A stretch of 33,942 nucleotides of DNA from a virus, in IMG/VR virus record IMGVR_UViG_3300009152_000016, positions 1 through 33,942 of that record; one strand, 5' to 3'. This document shows, one piece after another, positions 2,349 to 28,682 of this stretch. The notes under the pieces are model-generated. The model ran no database searches. It saw only the letters and a program-made list of their open reading frames with translations, and was not told where the DNA came from. Within the stretch, counting starts at the first letter, position 1; each line of letters begins with the position of its first letter. The position numbers and the translations under genes are program-made.

Positions 2349-2760
2349 AGCTATTGAAAGTCCTGAAAAAATGATGGAACTATTTAGCGCATACAAAAAG
2401 AAGGCTAAATCTAATCCAATTTTGAAACATACCTTTGTTGGTAAGGATGGAAAATCGGTTTATGAGGAAAGGGAAAGGGCCTTGACGATGGAGGGTTTTG
2501 AATTGTATTGTTTTGAACAAGGCATTATAAGCGATTTGAGCCAATATTTTTCAAATAAGGATGAAAGGTACAGCGATTTTGACGCTATCTGTCACACGAT
2601 TAGAAAATCCATCAGAGAGGACCAAATCCAAGGAGGCTTAGCTGGAGTTTATAACCCAAGCATAACTCAACGACTAAACGGCTTGACCGAGCGAGTTCAA
2701 ACTGAGCAGAATATAAACGTCAATAAATTGCCTGAATGGTTGACTAAGCCGATTGAGTAA
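2329..2760 (+). CDS. Terminase small subunit
   Basis: 143-residue DNA-packaging protein that recognises phage DNA and feeds it to the large subunit. I identify it from position (its TAATG stop touches the large-terminase start), size, and a helical, charged sequence in which ALTMEGFELYCFEQGI and IRKSIREDQIQGGLAGVYN resemble Bacteroidetes phage small terminases. The start is well fixed by AGGAGGT at 2314-2320, eight bases upstream. That is one of the few strong Shine-Dalgarno sites in the genome, and it lies inside the preceding glycosyltransferase gene. Confidence 0.75.
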   Translation: MSQGRNKAIESPEKMMELFSAYKKKAKSNPILKHTFVGKDGKSVYEERERALTMEGFELYCFEQGIISDLSQYFSNKDERYSDFDAICHTIRKSIREDQIQGGLAGVYNPSITQRLNGLTERVQTEQNINVNKLPEWLTKPIE

Positions 2761-3911
2761 TGTTTAATCCTAACTTTGTTTTTTTAGAGAAGGCAGTAAA
2801 GGACAAAAGGATAATAGCTCTTCAAGGGGGTACTCGTTCAGGCAAGACCTACTCAGCTTTACAATGGCTTATCCGATTATGTTTGAAACATCAGGGCATG
2901 ACCATTTCAATAGTTAGGAAAACTCTTCCTGCTTTGAAGTCGTCTGCAATGCGTGACTTCATAGAGATACTAAATTCAATCGGCTACTATAACGAGTCGG
3001 ACCATAACAAGTCAGAAAATACCTACCTACTTAATAAAAACCTTATTGAATTCTTTTCAGTTGACGATGCGCAAAAGATACGAGGTAGAAAGAGAGACAT
3101 CCTATTTGTAAATGAGGCCAATGAGATAGACCTTGAAGATTGGAGGCAGTTACTTTTAAGAACAACTGGTAAGGTTATAATTGACTATAACCCTTCAGAT
3201 TTTGAGCATTGGATTTATGATCAGGTATTAACGAGGGAAGATTGCGGCCTAATCATTACGACATACAAAGACAATCCCCATTTACCCGATGCACTTAAAA
3301 AGGAGATTGAAAGTTTAGAGCAAGCAGACCCTGAATACTGGAAAATCTTTGGTTTAGGGGAAAGAGGCCAACTGATGGGCTTAGTCTTTAACAATTGGAC
3401 GAATCAATTAGCGGTACCAGATAACGCCAATTTTGTAGGTTATGGTTTAGACTGGGGATTCTCAGCCGACCCTACTGCATTAGTTAGCGTTTGGAAGTAT
3501 GAACAAGAGTTATACATAAGGGAGGAGTTATACGAAAGAAAGTTGACCAACCAAGACATAGCTGAAAGGTTAAAGGATATGGGCATAGCTCGGAAAGAAA
3601 TATTTGCCGACTCAGCTGAACCTAAAAGTATTGAAGAAGTGTATAGATTAGGATTCAATATCAAACCAACTCAGAAGGGGAAAGACTCAATCATCAACTC
3701 AATAGACATTCTTAGACGCTACCGATTGAACCTGATAGGCAACAACCTACAAAAAGAGTTTAGAACCTACAAATGGAAAACGGACAAAGCAGGAAAGATA
3801 GTTAACGAACCAGTTGACTTTAACAACCACTTAATTGATGCTACACGCTATTTAGCTTTGATGAGATTGCAAGAACACAGACGTGGTCAATATGTTACAA
3901 TTAGGGCCTAA
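2760..3911 (+). CDS. Terminase large subunit
   Basis: 383-residue packaging motor with ATPase and nuclease domains (Terminase_3/PBSX-like). Walker A is GGTRSGKT at residues 23-30. The Walker B region is DILFVNEANE at 113-122, with the catalytic acid at E119. The RNase H-like nuclease starts at YGLDWGFSADPTALV with D231, has a second acid in IFADSAEP (D284) and a third in NHLIDATRYLA (D360), the three metal ligands expected. Length is normal to slightly short for the family. It works with the portal (14910) at the head vertex. Confidence 0.95.
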   Translation: MFNPNFVFLEKAVKDKRIIALQGGTRSGKTYSALQWLIRLCLKHQGMTISIVRKTLPALKSSAMRDFIEILNSIGYYNESDHNKSENTYLLNKNLIEFFSVDDAQKIRGRKRDILFVNEANEIDLEDWRQLLLRTTGKVIIDYNPSDFEHWIYDQVLTREDCGLIITTYKDNPHLPDALKKEIESLEQADPEYWKIFGLGERGQLMGLVFNNWTNQLAVPDNANFVGYGLDWGFSADPTALVSVWKYEQELYIREELYERKLTNQDIAERLKDMGIARKEIFADSAEPKSIEEVYRLGFNIKPTQKGKDSIINSIDILRRYRLNLIGNNLQKEFRTYKWKTDKAGKIVNEPVDFNNHLIDATRYLALMRLQEHRRGQYVTIRA

Positions 3912-4520: not shown

Positions 4521-4660
4521 ATAACCTTGCTGGACATGACAAGACCAAATGGGATTACTTTTTTAACTTAGGACTAAAGGAATTTTTAAATATAGTTAGT
4601 TATCACATAGACCACACCGACGAGATAAAGCGACAGAATGCAAGAACAAGACTACACTAA
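4403..4660 (+). CDS. Tail assembly chaperone, -1 frameshift extension (gpT-like)
   Basis: An open frame in -1 relative to the 3930 gene, with no ATG near its beginning. Its first codon is the TTG directly after the slippery heptamer. The 85-residue extension contains NTKWGWVATIDNLAGHDKTK and YFFNLGLKEFLNIVSYHID, a pattern I know from the second domain of Bacteroidetes tail chaperones (W-G-W/Y, I-D-x-L-A-x-x-D, K, N-x-x-E-F-L). It is best read as the end of a fusion of about 243 residues (158 + 85). The end overlaps the next gene by 23 bases. Independent initiation at TTG is possible but less likely. Confidence 0.7.
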   Translation: MHSIKQIIGQYPKLFPESSGNDREPVENFNTKWGWVATIDNLAGHDKTKWDYFFNLGLKEFLNIVSYHIDHTDEIKRQNARTRLH

Positions 4661-5258
4661 TTTACTGAGCGACTTAGGAACTGACTTGTCAGAGCCAGCC
4701 GAGTTCAACTCATTAATTGAGGAGGCTGTAATTCGTTTTGTTAATAGTTTGTCTGATGCGATGAAATCTAACCTAACCGAGAAGGATGCTTACTACGCTG
4801 ACTCGGAACTGGTCCAATCAATAATCACTTTACCTATTGAATCAAACGGAACTACTTTTTCAATGGCTATTGATATGAACTATTATGGTGACTTTATCAA
4901 TAAGGGTGTAAGCGGTACCAGAAACAAGTTCAATTCTCCTTATTCATTCAAAAAGGAATCAGTTAGTCCAGCCTTTAACAAGTCACTCAGAAAGTGGATC
5001 ACCAAAAGAGGCATCCCGATTCAAAGTAGGTATTCACAAACTCGCAACTTGACTAAGTCGGCAAGAGCTAAAAAACAAATAGACGAAAAAACCAAAATGG
5101 CTTACGCTATGGGAATGGGTATTAAAAGGGAAGGTATAGAACCAACTTACTTTATAGACGATGCCCTGAGTGAAAAGAGCATTCAGACCTTTGCTCAAAG
5201 TTTAGCAGATGCCTTAGGAAGGTCCATTTCAGTAACGATAATAAATAAATTCAAATGA
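4638..5258 (+). CDS. Tail completion / neck protein (HK97 gp10-like)
   Basis: 206-residue protein resembling head-tail joining proteins of Bacteroidetes phages. The diagnostic part is YYGDFINKGVSGTRNKFNSP (about residues 91-110), then ITKRGIPIQSR and a C-terminal GIKREGIEPTYFIDDAL. The same order (F-I-N-x-G-V-x-G, then G-I-x-P-T-x-F) is seen in many such proteins. It starts inside the end of the tail-chaperone fusion and ends in a four-base overlap with the 5255 gene, so it is part of one tail operon. Confidence 0.6.
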   Translation: MQEQDYTNLLSDLGTDLSEPAEFNSLIEEAVIRFVNSLSDAMKSNLTEKDAYYADSELVQSIITLPIESNGTTFSMAIDMNYYGDFINKGVSGTRNKFNSPYSFKKESVSPAFNKSLRKWITKRGIPIQSRYSQTRNLTKSARAKKQIDEKTKMAYAMGMGIKREGIEPTYFIDDALSEKSIQTFAQSLADALGRSISVTIINKFK

Positions 5259-10945: not shown

Positions 10946-12859
10946 ATGGCTAAATTACCTTTATACGAACTACTTATAAACGAAGATGAAGAAACTGGAG
11001 TTGACTTTATTGCTTTAGTAGATTCGCCTGCAATTGAATACGACTGGGTAGCTTTTAAGAGTGAATTTGAAACTTACAACGACTATCCTAAAGCTGCAAG
11101 TGAAAACGCAAAAAGAGCATTAGAACTTAGGGACAAATACCAATTAAATTGTGGCACTCCAGTTGGATGGACAAGAGCTAATCAATTGGCTAATGTAGAA
11201 AATATCAGCAGAGAAACGATTGCAAGGATGTCAGGCTTTGAACGCCACAGAGAGAATTCTAAAGGCGACCCTAAAGAAGACTGCGGGGCTTTAATGTGGT
11301 TAGCGTGGGGTGGCGATGAAGGGATAGAGTGGGCAAGTAGAAAATTACAACAGATTGACTTAGCAACTCAAAAAATCTCTATTGACTATGATGATACTTT
11401 AAGTACTTCAAGAGGACAAGAGTTAGCGAGTAGATTATTATCTGAAGGAGTAGATTTATATGTCATCTCAGCTCGTAATGATAAAGAGGGGATGTTAGAA
11501 CTTACTAATAAGTTAGGCATCCCTGAATCAAAAGTTTTTGCTACTGGTTCAAATAAGGCAAAAGTAGAGAAGGTTAACGAATTAGGAATCTCTAAGCATT
11601 ACGACAACAACGCAGAAGTAGTTAAGGCACTTGGAACAATCGGGGAAAAGTTTATAGTTGAGCCAAAAGCAGGAGAAAGCCAAGACGAGTTTGTAAGTAG
11701 GTGCATAGGAGTTGAGGTTAATGGCGGAATGAGTCAAGAACAAGCAGCAGCGGTTTGCTATGCTAAGTGGGAAAAGAAAGGCTTTAGCTTTAAGACAACT
11801 GACAAGCAAATAATCTCAGGACCAGCAATGATTCCGAACCAATCTATCTATCGTAGAGGAAAAGATGGTGAAGAGTATAATGTAGTTTTCTCAAAAGAAA
11901 CGATTCAAAAAATAGTAGAGAGATATTTCAAAAACCAATACAATAGCAACTTTAATCTGCAACATAAAAAGAATATGTTAGCGGAAGGGGTTTACTTAAT
12001 TGAGTCTTTCATCATTGATTCAATGCGTGGAATTAAAGCACCAGAAGGCTTTGAAGATTTACCAGATGGTAGTTGGTTTATTTCGTGTAAGGTGGACAAC
12101 GAGGAGATTTGGAATGACTACATTAAGAGTGGTAAGTTTAAAGGATTTTCTGTTGAAGGATTATTCACAGACAGAAAAGTTGAGATGGTTACTAATGTCC
12201 AAGAGGCAATCGCACTTGTTGATAAATTAAAATTGAATAAACAAAATATATATACAAATAATATGAGCGATGTAAAAGAGCTTTTAACTAAGTTGAAAGA
12301 AATCTTCTCAGAAGAAGTAGCTTCTTTTGAGGAGGCAAAATTAGCAGATGGAATTACCATCATTAAATGGGAAGGACCATTGGCAGAAGGTACGAGTGTA
12401 ATGGTAGTTAGCGAGTCAGGTGAAGTCCCAGCTCCAGATGGCGAACACGAATTACAAGACGGCAGAAAAATCACTGTTGAAAATGGAAAAGTAACCACTT
12501 TGGTTATGCCTGAAACTCCAGCTGAAATGCCTGAAGCACCAGTTGAAATTGAAATTGAAGCTAAACAAAAAATGGCTGAAGACTATATGCCAATGGTTGA
12601 AGAAATGGGTGCTAAAATCATGAAGTGCGAAGAAATGATAATGGAACTTCAATCAAAAATGAAAGAAATGATGGGAGCTACTGAACAAAAAATGGATTCA
12701 CAAAAAGAAGCTTTTTCTAAGTTAGTTGAAATCGTTGAGAAGTTAGCAGATGCGCCTTCAGAAGTGATTGACACAAAAGCTTTCAATGTTAATTTCAAAG
12801 CTGAAAAAGACAACCAATACAATAAATTAAACGAAATTTTAAACATATTAAATAAATAA
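10946..12859 (+). CDS. Composite prohead protease (XkdF-like) with HAD domain and scaffold-like C-terminus
   Basis: 637 residues, clearly modular. Residues 1-40 include FIALVDSPAIEYDW, the usual start of XkdF-like phage proteins. Residues 47-135 form a module with GTPVGWTRANQLANVENISR and CGALMWLAWGGDEGIEWAS. Residues 143-230 look like a HAD phosphatase: D147-Y-D149-D-T151 for motif I, S175 in VISAR, K204, and D220 in HYDNN. Residues 244-276 (GESQDEFVSRCI, EQAAAVCYAKWE) form a further small module. The XkdF-like protease core resumes at 286-412 (ISGPAMIPNQSIYRRG, NFNLQHKKN). The rest is acidic and coiled-coil, like scaffold. It sits just upstream of the capsid gene, as expected for head maturation. 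Confidence 0.75.
   Translation: MAKLPLYELLINEDEETGVDFIALVDSPAIEYDWVAFKSEFETYNDYPKAASENAKRALELRDKYQLNCGTPVGWTRANQLANVENISRETIARMSGFERHRENSKGDPKEDCGALMWLAWGGDEGIEWASRKLQQIDLATQKISIDYDDTLSTSRGQELASRLLSEGVDLYVISARNDKEGMLELTNKLGIPESKVFATGSNKAKVEKVNELGISKHYDNNAEVVKALGTIGEKFIVEPKAGESQDEFVSRCIGVEVNGGMSQEQAAAVCYAKWEKKGFSFKTTDKQIISGPAMIPNQSIYRRGKDGEEYNVVFSKETIQKIVERYFKNQYNSNFNLQHKKNMLAEGVYLIESFIIDSMRGIKAPEGFEDLPDGSWFISCKVDNEEIWNDYIKSGKFKGFSVEGLFTDRKVEMVTNVQEAIALVDKLKLNKQNIYTNNMSDVKELLTKLKEIFSEEVASFEEAKLADGITIIKWEGPLAEGTSVMVVSESGEVPAPDGEHELQDGRKITVENGKVTTLVMPETPAEMPEAPVEIEIEAKQKMAEDYMPMVEEMGAKIMKCEEMIMELQSKMKEMMGATEQKMDSQKEAFSKLVEIVEKLADAPSEVIDTKAFNVNFKAEKDNQYNKLNEILNILNK
12263..12859 (+). CDS. Candidate nested scaffolding protein (internal in-frame start)
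   Basis: An ATG at 12263 is in frame with the protease ORF (codon 440) and would give a 198-residue acidic, Met/Glu-rich coiled-coil protein starting MSDVKELLTKLKEIF. Upstream is the same AATATATA-type leader found before other late genes (AAAATATATATACAAATAAT, 12243-12262), although this stretch is inside a coding sequence. Nested scaffold genes in frame with the protease are known (lambda C/Nu3). I infer the same arrangement here. No Shine-Dalgarno site is present, but most genes in this genome lack one. Confidence 0.5.
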   Translation: MSDVKELLTKLKEIFSEEVASFEEAKLADGITIIKWEGPLAEGTSVMVVSESGEVPAPDGEHELQDGRKITVENGKVTTLVMPETPAEMPEAPVEIEIEAKQKMAEDYMPMVEEMGAKIMKCEEMIMELQSKMKEMMGATEQKMDSQKEAFSKLVEIVEKLADAPSEVIDTKAFNVNFKAEKDNQYNKLNEILNILNK

Positions 12860-26035: not shown

Positions 26036-26316
26036 AACAAACAGCAGTAGAATGGTTATTTAACCAAATTAAAAAGGACATAATTGGCATTGAATACGAT
26101 TATGCAGATGAATTAAATCAAGCCAAAGAAATGGAGAAGGATCAGATGATTGATTTTGCTTCTTGGATAGCCAAATCTGAATGGATGAGTATTTGGGTAG
26201 TTGATAAGTGGATGTGGGAATCCCAAAAAGAAAATTCAAATACAAATTACAAAACGGATAAAGAACTATTTGATATTTACTACAACGAAACATACGGAGG
26301 TACAGATGAAATTTGA
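26032..26316 (+). CDS. Small phage protein, relative of 25195
   Basis: 94 residues starting MKQTAVEWLFNQIKKDIIGI, a common Bacteroidetes phage pattern ('K-Q-T-A-V-E-W-L'), with MEKDQMIDFA in the middle and a C-terminus LFDIYYNETYGGTDEI. Function unknown. It overlaps the exonuclease by four bases, and its final codons hold the ribosome binding site for the next gene. Confidence 0.6.
   Translation: MKQTAVEWLFNQIKKDIIGIEYDYADELNQAKEMEKDQMIDFASWIAKSEWMSIWVVDKWMWESQKENSNTNYKTDKELFDIYYNETYGGTDEI
26296..26301 (+). promoter_or_regulatory. Shine-Dalgarno site GGAGGT inside the 26032 gene
   Basis: GGAGGT four bases before the ATG at 26306, read as Gly-Gly in the upstream protein. It supports 26306 as the start of the DnaA-like gene and not the longer open frame from 26201. 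Confidence 0.8.
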
Positions 26317-26722
26317 TAACCCATTTTTAAGAACTTTAGCCAAAAAGTACAACTTTAATGTGCTTGAAGAATGGGCCATCTACATTCAGAATGCCAAAGA
26401 CAAAGACAATTTAAACGAAATTGAAATGATGATTTACGAACTGGCAAAGATTAGCGGATACACATTTGAAGATATCAGAGGAACTTGCCGAAAACGTGAG
26501 CTTACAGAAGTAAAACACATTGGTAGATACATAGCTTGGAACAATAAGTTAGGTTCATTATCCGAAATTGGTCATGCATTTGGTCATAAGGACCATTCAA
26601 CAATAATCCATTCAAGAGATTTCGTTGATTCTATGCTCCAAATTAATGAAAAATTATTTATGACAAATTTCAACAAATACAAACATCTTTTACATGGGGA
26701 TAATCAGTCCCTATCAAATTAG
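26306..26722 (+). CDS. DnaA domain IV-like protein
   Basis: 138 residues. The signature GHKDHSTIIHS (residues 93-103) and IRGTCRKRELTEVKHIGRYI (57-76) match the DNA-binding domain IV of DnaA, here without the AAA+ ATPase. The N-terminal 45 residues are helical. It probably binds an origin-like repeat and helps start phage replication, or blocks host DnaA. I see no clear DnaA box in the gaps nearby. It lies just upstream of the replication genes, which supports a replication role. Confidence 0.75.
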   Translation: MKFDNPFLRTLAKKYNFNVLEEWAIYIQNAKDKDNLNEIEMMIYELAKISGYTFEDIRGTCRKRELTEVKHIGRYIAWNNKLGSLSEIGHAFGHKDHSTIIHSRDFVDSMLQINEKLFMTNFNKYKHLLHGDNQSLSN

Positions 26723-26754: not shown

Positions 26755-27015
26755 ATGAAACCAAAATCACAAAAGGCTGCAATATTCAGCCTATTAAACT
26801 CAGGGATTAAACTTGACCTGATGAAAGCTTTTAAACTTACTGGCACTATGAAATTAGCTGCAAGAGTTAGCGAATTTAGAAACATGGGTTGCAACATTGA
26901 AGGCGAGGTTAAGCACTTTAAAACTAAGTTCGGAACGGCAGGAAAGTACATGGAGTATTCAATGAAAGCGAATAAAGCCAGCAAACAACTTAGCAAATAC
27001 TATGTTAATAACTAA
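26755..27015 (+). CDS. Helix-turn-helix phage protein
   Basis: 86 residues. SQKAAIFSLLNSGIKLDLMK then AFKLTGTMKLAARVSEFRNM and a short wing-like GEVKHFKTKFGTAGKY look like a winged helix-turn-helix. Similar small proteins occur beside phage replication genes and are usually called DNA-binding or regulatory. The preceding 32-base gap holds no promoter box that I can see. Confidence 0.6.
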   Translation: MKPKSQKAAIFSLLNSGIKLDLMKAFKLTGTMKLAARVSEFRNMGCNIEGEVKHFKTKFGTAGKYMEYSMKANKASKQLSKYYVNN

Positions 27016-27040
27016 TTTTTTACTTAGTTTTAAAGCTAAT

Positions 27041-27048
27041 TAAGTTTG
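27041..27048 (+). promoter_or_regulatory. Candidate -7 promoter box upstream of the structured leader
   Basis: TAAGTTTG fits TAnnTTTG exactly. Nineteen bases upstream is only TTTT (27018-27021), not TTTG, so the -33 part is weak. Transcription would start near 27053-27056, at the edge of the first hairpin of the structured leader. Confidence 0.4.
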
Positions 27049-27050
27049 TA

Positions 27051-27152
27051 TTGGTTTCGCAGCCAAATGATGATATTTAAGAAAATAAAATATTGCCGAT
27101 TGATTAAGGACTGGGTCGTCATCAACCCTTGCGAAGTTCTTAGTTGGTCGGC
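27051..27152 (+). ncRNA. Structured RNA in the leader of the 27163 gene (unrecognised)
   Basis: 27095-27111 pairs with 27136-27152 over 17 consecutive base pairs, five of them G-U, so the RNA pairs better than the DNA would. Inside, GGGT (27113-27116) pairs with ACCC (27125-27128) round an eight-base loop, leaving UUGCGAA (27129-27135) unpaired on the 3' side. Upstream, TTGG (27051-27054) and CCAA (27063-27066) form a small hairpin whose loop has TTCGCA (27056-27061), complementary to TGCGAA (27130-27135). That gives a six-base loop-bulge pseudoknot. The 58-base core is about 52 percent G+C in an A/T-rich genome and ends ten bases before the ATG. I recognise no known riboswitch or tRNA. Confidence 0.55.
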
Positions 27153-27162
27153 TTTCATATTT

Positions 27163-27762
27163 ATGGCAGAGAATAAAAATTCATTCGTTCTGTATGCAGA
27201 TATTATTCATACAGTATCAATTTTAGATGATTCTAAGGCAGGAAAATTGTTCAAACATATATTGGATTATGTCAATGATAAAAATCCAATTAGTGAAGAT
27301 ATGTTAGTTAATATTGCCTTTGAACCAATCAAGCAACAACTTAAAAGAGACCTACAAAAGTGGGATGAGATTAGAGATAAAAGAGCTTTAGCTGGTAGTA
27401 TTGGTGGGCATTCTAAAGCAAAACGAAGCAAAACCAAGCAAATTGTAGCAAATGCTAAAAGTGCTAAGCAAAACGTAGCAAATGTAGCTGTAAATGGTAA
27501 TGTAAATGTAAATGTAATAAATAATAGTATAGAGAATATCCAATCTATTTTTATTTCTAAAACTGATACAGAATGGACTAAACAATTTGCATTAAAAGAG
27601 GCTGAGAAATTCTTTAATTACTACTCATCAAATAATTGGATGGTTGGTAAAAACAAAATGAAATCAATTGAACACACAATAGCTAACTGGATACTTAGAG
27701 TTGAAAAACCAGTACTAAAAAATGCTCCTAAACCCTTTGATCCTTCAAAAGTAATTTGGTAA
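27163..27762 (+). CDS. Replisome-organiser-like protein (DUF6291-like)
   Basis: 199 residues from the ATG at 27163. NSFVLYADIIHTVSILDDSK then AGKLFKHILDYVNDK is the start pattern of DUF6291 proteins in Bacteroidetes phages. A basic middle stretch (SIGGHSKAKRSKTKQIVANA) is followed by a short Asn/Val repeat and a C-terminal helical part (NMWVGKNK-like region, TIANWILRVEK). An open frame extends 39 codons upstream, but it runs through the structured leader and the family begins here. It lies directly before the DnaB-like gene, consistent with helicase loading or origin binding. Confidence 0.65.
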   Translation: MAENKNSFVLYADIIHTVSILDDSKAGKLFKHILDYVNDKNPISEDMLVNIAFEPIKQQLKRDLQKWDEIRDKRALAGSIGGHSKAKRSKTKQIVANAKSAKQNVANVAVNGNVNVNVINNSIENIQSIFISKTDTEWTKQFALKEAEKFFNYYSSNNWMVGKNKMKSIEHTIANWILRVEKPVLKNAPKPFDPSKVIW

Positions 27763-27764
27763 CT

Positions 27765-28682
27765 ATGGGAAAGATTATACAAGCTAACGACATACAAGAG
27801 CAACTCATGCACTTGCACAAATACGGACAAAATGCAGGGTTAAAAATCGGTTTTAATAACTTAGATAAACTCTACTCAATAAAACAAGGTAGATCAACAA
27901 TCATCTACGGGCATCCAACCAGCGGGAAAAGTCAGTTCCTAATTCAAATACTTTGCGCTTTAGCAACTAAACACAATAAAAAGTGCTTGATTTATACTCC
28001 TGAAACTGGATCAGCGCACGAAATATTTGCAGAGATAATACACTGCCTAACTGGAAAGACCTTTGACAAACGATCTATAAACTATCAAATCAGCGAAAAG
28101 GAGCTTTATACAGTTTATCCATTTGTTCAGGACTATTTTAAGGTTATTGATGTGGACGAGAAAGGATTGGACTTTGACGAATGGTTAAATTTAACAGACG
28201 AGGCAATTCGTGACTATGGGATATTCAGTAGCTCAGTAGACAACTGGAACGATATAGAACACAAATATACTGGTACCATTAGTGAATACCTAAAACAACA
28301 GTTACCGAGAGTAAATAGACACGCAAGAAAAAACAATACTCACAATTTTATAGTATCTCACGCAAGAAACCCTGATATGCGAGGCGGTGATAAGTACCCA
28401 CCAGCACCCCGACCAGATGAAATTGAAGGCGGTTCAGTTTGGTATGCTAAGGCTCTCAACTTAATTTGTGTTCATAGGGATTACGAAGAACATGGCGAAG
28501 GGTGGAGACAATCCAGCGAGGCTCAAATAATTATTCGCAAGATTAAAAAAAGGGCAGAAGGCGAAAAAGGAACGGCTAAACTTAACTTTGATGTGTTTAG
28601 GAATGCTTACTACGAAAACTTAGGCGAACGCCACTACTTAGAAACACCATTTAACGGATTAGAAATTAAAACACCATTTTAA
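27765..28682 (+). CDS. DnaB-like replicative helicase / RecA-fold ATPase
   Basis: 305 residues from the ATG at 27765 (preferred to a TTG three codons upstream). Walker A is GHPTSGKS at residues 49-56. Strands with CLIYTPETGS (the acid after a strand) and NFIVSHARNP (a sensor-like histidine) follow. The protein lacks the N-terminal domain of full DnaB, which is common in small phages. It should unwind DNA ahead of the host polymerase, since I see no phage polymerase or primase gene. Confidence 0.75.
   Translation: MGKIIQANDIQEQLMHLHKYGQNAGLKIGFNNLDKLYSIKQGRSTIIYGHPTSGKSQFLIQILCALATKHNKKCLIYTPETGSAHEIFAEIIHCLTGKTFDKRSINYQISEKELYTVYPFVQDYFKVIDVDEKGLDFDEWLNLTDEAIRDYGIFSSSVDNWNDIEHKYTGTISEYLKQQLPRVNRHARKNNTHNFIVSHARNPDMRGGDKYPPAPRPDEIEGGSVWYAKALNLICVHRDYEEHGEGWRQSSEAQIIIRKIKKRAEGEKGTAKLNFDVFRNAYYENLGERHYLETPFNGLEIKTPF

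Follow-up and report, generated by a model that had tools for sequence, protein, structure and literature searches.

Genomic context and predicted fold

The virus record IMGVR_UViG_3300009152_000016 (33,942 nucleotides (nt), analysed over its whole length and called the window here) carries a structured RNA element at positions 27051-27152, read on the plus strand. The gene behind it encodes a DUF6291 protein of the replication-initiator type, whose PF19808 match (E 6.9e-22) begins at 27181, six codons past the ATG, and whose relatives in cultured phages are annotated as 'replication protein'. Because the DUF6291 gene is accompanied by genes for a DnaB_C-type helicase, a DNA methylase and, further on, NinG, the region is taken to be a replication module. 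The initial annotation, made from the letters of the window, had placed the element in the leader of a replication gene, and this agrees with the gene content. The features are collected in Table 1.

Table 1. Features of the leader and of the adjoining genes in the window
Feature	Position	Strand	Remarks
HTH_39 (PF14090) gene	26755..27015	+	domain match; immediately precedes the RNA, a conserved arrangement
TAAGTTTG, Bacteroidota-type -7 promoter box	27041..27048	+	sequence match; predicted +1 at 27053
P0, small 5' hairpin GGU-UUCGCA-GCC	27053..27064	+	opens the predicted transcript; loop segment A at 27056-27061; unchanged in all family-1 homologues
Segment B, (A)UGAUGA	27067..27073	+	just 3' of P0; register 27068-27073 with apical loop b at 27119-27124
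A-rich linker, 21 nt	27074..27094	+	comparable linker in other leaders
P1, terminator-like stem of 17 base pairs (bp), 5' arm	27095..27111	+	alignment covariation; five G-U pairs
P2, inner hairpin GGGU/ACCC	27113..27128	+	arms 27113-27116/27125-27128; 8-nt loop; loop segment b at 27119-27124 (UCAUCA)
Bulge UUGCGAA	27129..27135	+	segment a (27130-27135) complementary to UUCGCA at 27056-27061
P1, 3' arm	27136..27152	+	fold and covariation
U-rich tract UUUCAUAUUU	27153..27162	+	abuts the start codon at 27163
DUF6291 (PF19808) replication-initiator-type gene	27163..27762	+	PF19808 match
AAGCAAAACG-like direct repeats, 10-nt spacing	27416..27484	+	inside the DUF6291 gene; resemble origin iterons within an initiator gene
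DnaB_C-type helicase gene	27765..28682	+	domain match; next in the replication operon

The 17-bp stem with its five G-U pairs, the GGGU/ACCC hairpin, the UUGCGAA bulge and the small upstream hairpin all lie where the initial annotation had put them, and the structure does end ten bases before the ATG. It had also judged a run of 17 pairs to be unlikely by chance. The longest stem of the 147-nt leader is 18 bp, and none of 1000 dinucleotide shuffles gave a stem of at least 17 bp. The minimum free energy of 27040-27165 (ViennaRNA) is -33.0 kcal/mol against a shuffled mean of -23.3 (z -2.84), with 1 of 200 shuffles as good. The start-codon frame runs open through the hairpin in the window and in contig L081, yet it holds stops in most homologues. 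The region is thus not coding, and the objection that it might be translated as part of the protein falls away.

Homologous leaders and covariation

Homologues were sought with a DUF6291 protein search, DNA patterns and a protein search for the upstream HTH_39 gene. Leaders of the same kind, termed family 1, are found in about a dozen distinct contigs (window/L002/L003, L004, L005, L006, L008/L010, L009, L011, L012, L013, L014, L081, L104, L184/L187/L193, and L197, where the copy is cut). Against a model made from ten of these leaders their scores are 78-150 bits, and nothing comparable was seen in unrelated contigs. Among ten whole records searched, eight hold one copy each and two hold none, having a second RNA family instead. 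Six pattern matches in the genome collection were regarded as chance because the family-1 model did not score them. DUF6291 was not found in two genomes checked, and cultured-phage DNA gave no meaningful match to the leader. No match was obtained in Rfam 15 at the gathering threshold or at E<=5, the presence of the guanidine-IV model in that Rfam copy being unverified. A description of the element was likewise not found in the literature, in a search limited to open-access papers.

In the alignment of P1 and P2, 96.8% of the cells are paired, and changes on both sides occur in six pairs (five in P1 and one in P2, where the closing pair shows a compensatory swap between U-A and A-U). The covariation score is 0.320 against 0.196 for shuffled alignments, a value reached by 0 of 500 shuffles, and sliding the partner columns by 1-3 positions lowers the pairing to 27-51%. 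The compensatory changes that the initial annotation had looked for in the 17-bp stem are therefore present, and its objection of homologues without covariation does not hold. Together with the G-U pairs, these changes support its view that the element acts as RNA rather than as a DNA palindrome.

Its proposed pseudoknot needs revision. Segments A (UUCGCA) and a (UGCGAA) are invariant in the family-1 homologues, so that this pairing is compatible with the alignment, while the invariance neither supports nor refutes it by covariation. A different pairing does covary. Apical loop b varies among the homologues, each time with a compensating change in segment B just after the small hairpin. Six B/b types were found: UGAUGA/UCAUCA, GCAAAUG/CAUUUGC, GUAUAUG/CAUAUAC, GUAUGUA/UGCAUAC, GAAUGUA/UACAUUC, and AAGGAC/GUCCUU. 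In a permutation test of matched against mismatched loops over these six types, the matched pair was better (p = 0.002). The element is accordingly pseudoknotted, through B and b. The leader thus has a conserved RNA structure in which a loop covaries with its 5' partner, and this structure starts right behind a promoter box and finishes with a terminator-like hairpin; the comparisons draw on a modest number of independent lineages. The second loop pairing, the terminator character and the promoter box were all absent from the initial annotation.

Promoter box and terminator character

The -7 element of Flavobacterium spans -12 to -5 (PMC6847099; PMC9723704), and the start of transcription is therefore predicted at 27053, where the small hairpin begins. 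In all seven family-1 members measured, the first base of the hairpin coincides with the predicted +1. An exact TAnnTTTG lies 0-13 nt 5' of the 5' element in 23 of 28 leaders, against 1.3 expected from shuffles, the 28 including homologues and hence not being 28 independent cases. The first hairpin would thus be transcribed, as the initial annotation required, and the predicted start lies upstream of 27095, beyond which it would have told against the structure. On the opposite strand, a TATGTTTG box at about 27250-27260 points back to the leader and is shared by the window, L004 and L006, perhaps only because the codons there are conserved, or perhaps as an antisense promoter.

The tract behind P1 reads UUUCAUAUUU in the window and UUUUAUAUUUU in most homologues, whereas in L013 the stem runs into U7 and the next ATG is 43 nt away. 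Tails of U6-U8 are seen in the other leader families described below. The P1 hairpin and its U-rich tract thus resemble an intrinsic terminator; a stable hairpin with a U tract is clear in family 2, in other kinds of leader and in L013, and weak in the window. The start codon is usually no more than about 10 nt from the hairpin, so that transcription into the gene has to run through the hairpin first. L013 (2340-2366) and L184 (about 3345-3375) have an extra small hairpin (AAUUGG-UGCGCAU-CCAAUU, or a varied copy) 3' of the U tract and ahead of the next start codon.

A compact unit of promoter, RNA and terminator that begins at +1 could also be a stand-alone, trans-acting small RNA of ~100-110 nt, with the replication gene merely read through. 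The U-rich tails of L013 and L184, with the next ATG at least 40 nt off, suit such an RNA, as does an RNA body that stays unaltered where the downstream gene is swapped. On the other hand, in every family-1 and family-2 contig examined it leads a replication operon, the start codon mostly abuts the U tract, and no unpaired seed is conserved across the families. We consider a stand-alone small RNA unlikely.

The AAGCAAAACG repeats are possibly origin iterons, judging by their resemblance to such repeats, and they lie about 260 nt downstream of an RNA that adjoins the initiator gene. A transcript that primes replication or activates an origin, as proposed for lambda OOP RNA or ColE1 RNAII, might be expected in such a place. 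However, the U-tract hairpin would end the RNA before the repeats, and neither the G-U pairs nor the kissing loops are required in a primer, making this role highly improbable.

Genes behind the leader

Behind these RNAs lie, for the most part, replication initiators that are not homologous to one another: DUF6291, Lin1244_N, HTH_36/O-like, phrog_270, DnaD-like (phrog_6251), and primosomal (phrog_9327). The RNAs of the window and L081 are nearly identical, whereas the proteins behind them are unrelated (DUF6291 and DnaD-like). An HNH endonuclease gene lies exactly between the RNA and the DUF6291 gene in L008, L009 and L012 (about 2666-3014), and a small gene lies between the RNA and the initiator in L013/L184. 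The conserved entity is the leader and not the downstream gene. Near-identical RNAs before non-homologous genes make the downstream product an unlikely sensor, and autoregulation by the downstream protein appears unlikely.

The same swaps bear on a translational operator bound by the replication protein that it precedes, as in T4 gp32. The structure stands immediately 5' of the start codon, and structure in the start region is known to tune translation in Flavobacterium (PMC6847099). However, nearly the same RNA precedes unrelated proteins in the window and L081, and families 1 and 2 each lead several non-homologous proteins, including the HNH nuclease in three contigs. Such an operator is thus very improbable. 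Of the functions offered in the initial annotation (control of replication-protein synthesis by ligand, protein or antisense RNA, or a primer RNA at an origin), control by the downstream protein is disfavoured because the genes change and the RNA stays, and the terminator-type attenuator that fits best was not among them.

The initiators themselves show domain exchange: those of L013 (2584-3246) and of the window have a common C-terminal part and exchanged N-terminal domains. Two genes 5' of the RNA, at 26306-26722 of the window, is a small protein with a DnaA C-terminal DNA-binding domain, and Olleya phage Harreka_1 likewise has an annotated DnaA-type HTH protein.

A second family and further leaders of the same layout

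In L199, L208 and L214 the same HTH_39 gene is followed by a different RNA in the same slot. In this family 2, the loop of a 5' hairpin (GUAGCGG, GUAGUGG, or GUGGUGG) complements the loop of a GCCC-GAAGC...GCCGA-GGGC terminator with a U7-U8 tail. A pattern search for the terminator with the loops left unconstrained added L219, L254, L257, L267, L276, L313, L314, L321, and perhaps L323, and all of these leaders have a loop complementarity of 7-9 nt. The kissing loops of family 2 are supported by a permutation test (p = 0.003) independent of family 1. The L323 copy (4616-4731) has a GCCCGAAGC/GCCGAGGGC terminator and an 8-nt loop complement, on a contig with a Shine-Dalgarno-like start and a higher G+C content that is apparently not a Bacteroidota phage; it is possibly the same RNA outside the Bacteroidota, or a chance match.

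The families are unrelated in sequence and share a layout: a -7 box, a 5' segment, an A-rich linker, and a hairpin that carries a U tract and has a loop complementary to the 5' segment. Cultured phages have such pairs before their DUF6291 operons: Cellulophaga phages phi13:2 and phi19:3 (UUCUCUCACAA/UUGUGAGAGGG), Olleya phage Harreka_1 (GUGGUGG/CCACCAC), and Flavobacterium phages elemoA (UGAGAGC/GCUCUCA), sniff9-2 (GUGAGACG/CGUCUCAC), and 11b (CGGGCAGG/CCUGCCCG). The layout also occurs in uncultured L020 and L031 and, by eye, in L019. The linker measures 18-24 nt in 20 leaders of eight sequence-unrelated kinds. The L016 leader was suggestive by eye, and its complementarity was not significant. 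No convincing case was found in the DUF6291 phages of Vibrio, Aeromonas, Riemerella, and Leeuwenhoekiella or in the faecal ones. In sniff9-2 (L370), a second kissing terminator (GUCGUCG/CGACGAC, 12541-12588) with its own -7 box stands directly 5' of a NUMOD4/HNH endonuclease gene, and the layout is therefore not confined to initiators.

Loop complementarity reached p<=0.05 in 11 of 18 DUF6291-type leader terminators, several of them homologues, and the 18 are an incomplete count as the terminator finder skipped some leaders (e.g. L006 and L019). The test was run on all listed DUF6291-type leaders whatever the outcome, the sets beyond families 1 and 2 having been partly picked by eye first. In a control set of 285 terminators from 270 unrelated contigs, p<=0.05 was reached in 8 (3%) and p<=0.02 in 3. 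This control rate bears on the simplest explanation, an ordinary terminator of the HTH_39 gene with complementarity by chance. The hairpin does sit just after that gene, but the intervening promoter box, the constant linker and the low control rate argue otherwise and the covarying loops already contradict it, leaving this explanation hardly credible.

Proposed mechanism

We put at slightly better than even the chance that this leader attenuates, in cis, transcription from the promoter of the phage replication operon. RNA synthesis would start at about 27053, giving first the 5' hairpin and segment B and then the A-rich linker of ~20 nt. The terminator-like hairpin would follow, with loop b pairing to B, as the covariation indicates, and bulge a perhaps pairing to the invariant A. 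The polymerase would have to pass this hairpin to express the replication gene, the gap of ~10 nt leaving no room for another promoter. The pseudoknot between loop and 5' segment would compete with, or reshape, the completion of the terminator stem and in this way set the read-through, as in guanidine-IV. A metabolite, a host or phage factor, the speed of the polymerase, or a second RNA may tip the balance. Transcription termination, its control by the pseudoknot and the gating of the replication operon are all inferred from sequence.

Several points weigh against attenuation. The window box carries a G at -9, which is disfavoured in F. johnsoniae, and no clear -33 TTG was found at the usual spacing in the window promoter. 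The window tail UUUCAUAUUU is a weak U tract. For the window alone the loop complementarity is borderline (p about 0.05), and the case rests on its homologues. Some DUF6291 loci have no such leader, and the families have a layout in common but lack the conserved sequence pocket that a ligand-sensing switch would usually have.

That the layout recurs at the same place in many Bacteroidota phages suggests a so far undescribed RNA switch acting on phage DNA replication. These phages are abundant in the gut and in water, and their replication control is little studied; a shared leader layout before non-homologous initiators is a candidate RNA control point. It is open to study in the cultured phages 11b, elemoA, sniff9-2, Harreka_1, and phi13:2. 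A bolder and rather unlikely proposal is a widespread, undescribed class of kissing-terminator leaders, defined by geometry and not by sequence, that arose or diversified repeatedly in Bacteroidota phages and gates both initiator synthesis and transcription towards an origin in the initiator gene. The freely diversifying loop pair might then be a specificity code, through which the RNA of one phage kisses the leader of a like phage in trans and shuts it off (an RNA immunity group).

Comparison with known RNA systems

In rep attenuators of the pT181/pIP501 type, a terminator just before the replication-initiator gene controls replication, and an antisense RNA from the opposite strand is needed. 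The position of the terminator is alike here; in contrast, the complementarity lies within one strand, and an antisense promoter is only a possibility. The protein gp32 of T4 binds a pseudoknot in its own mRNA as a translational operator. That pseudoknot, too, stands at the 5' end of the mRNA of a phage replication gene and has an A/U-rich spacer, but it has no terminator and is bound by its own product, whereas here the product changes and the RNA stays. Self-cleaving ribozymes (HDV-like and pistol) differ in nesting order or in required elements.

The putRNAs of HK022 comprise about 70 nt with two stem-loops, 3' of early promoters (PMC9378689). As described in the literature, they resemble the window RNA as two-stem phage leaders at the start of an early transcript that affect termination (PMC9378689). 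The window RNA likewise begins at the predicted +1 of a long early operon and could bind the transcribing polymerase so that this and later terminators are ignored. However, putRNA has a conserved sequence, binds the beta' zinc domain of the polymerase and has a second stem that is no terminator, while the present sequences diverge widely between phages and their 3' hairpin has a U tract. A put-like function is thus quite improbable.

The guanidine-IV riboswitch is an ON switch of two hairpins joined by a kissing loop, in which the 3' hairpin is the terminator (PMC7736828, PMC11611296). Formation of the kissing loop hinders completion of the terminator and leads to read-through (PMC7736828, PMC11611296, PMC9788692). 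In guanidine-IV and its Gd4v variant, as here, a loop-loop pseudoknot joins two elements, the 3' one being a Rho-independent terminator shortly 5' of the start codon, and non-homologous genes follow (PMC7736828, PMC9788692, PMC11611296). The present leaders have a 5' element whose pairing with the terminator-hairpin loop covaries, and a U tract. In family 1, unlike guanidine-IV, the 5' partner is a segment beside the small hairpin loop and not within it. Moreover, the pairing segments vary with compensation in every family, Rfam gives no match, and replication initiators with a few HNH or small unknown genes replace guanidine-related genes such as transporters. With its pairing segments unconserved and its genes different, the element would resemble guanidine-IV in layout and is judged not to be a member. 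Kissing-hairpin terminators, so far from one riboswitch type, are thereby suggested as a general regulatory design, and geometry can reveal them where sequence searches fail.
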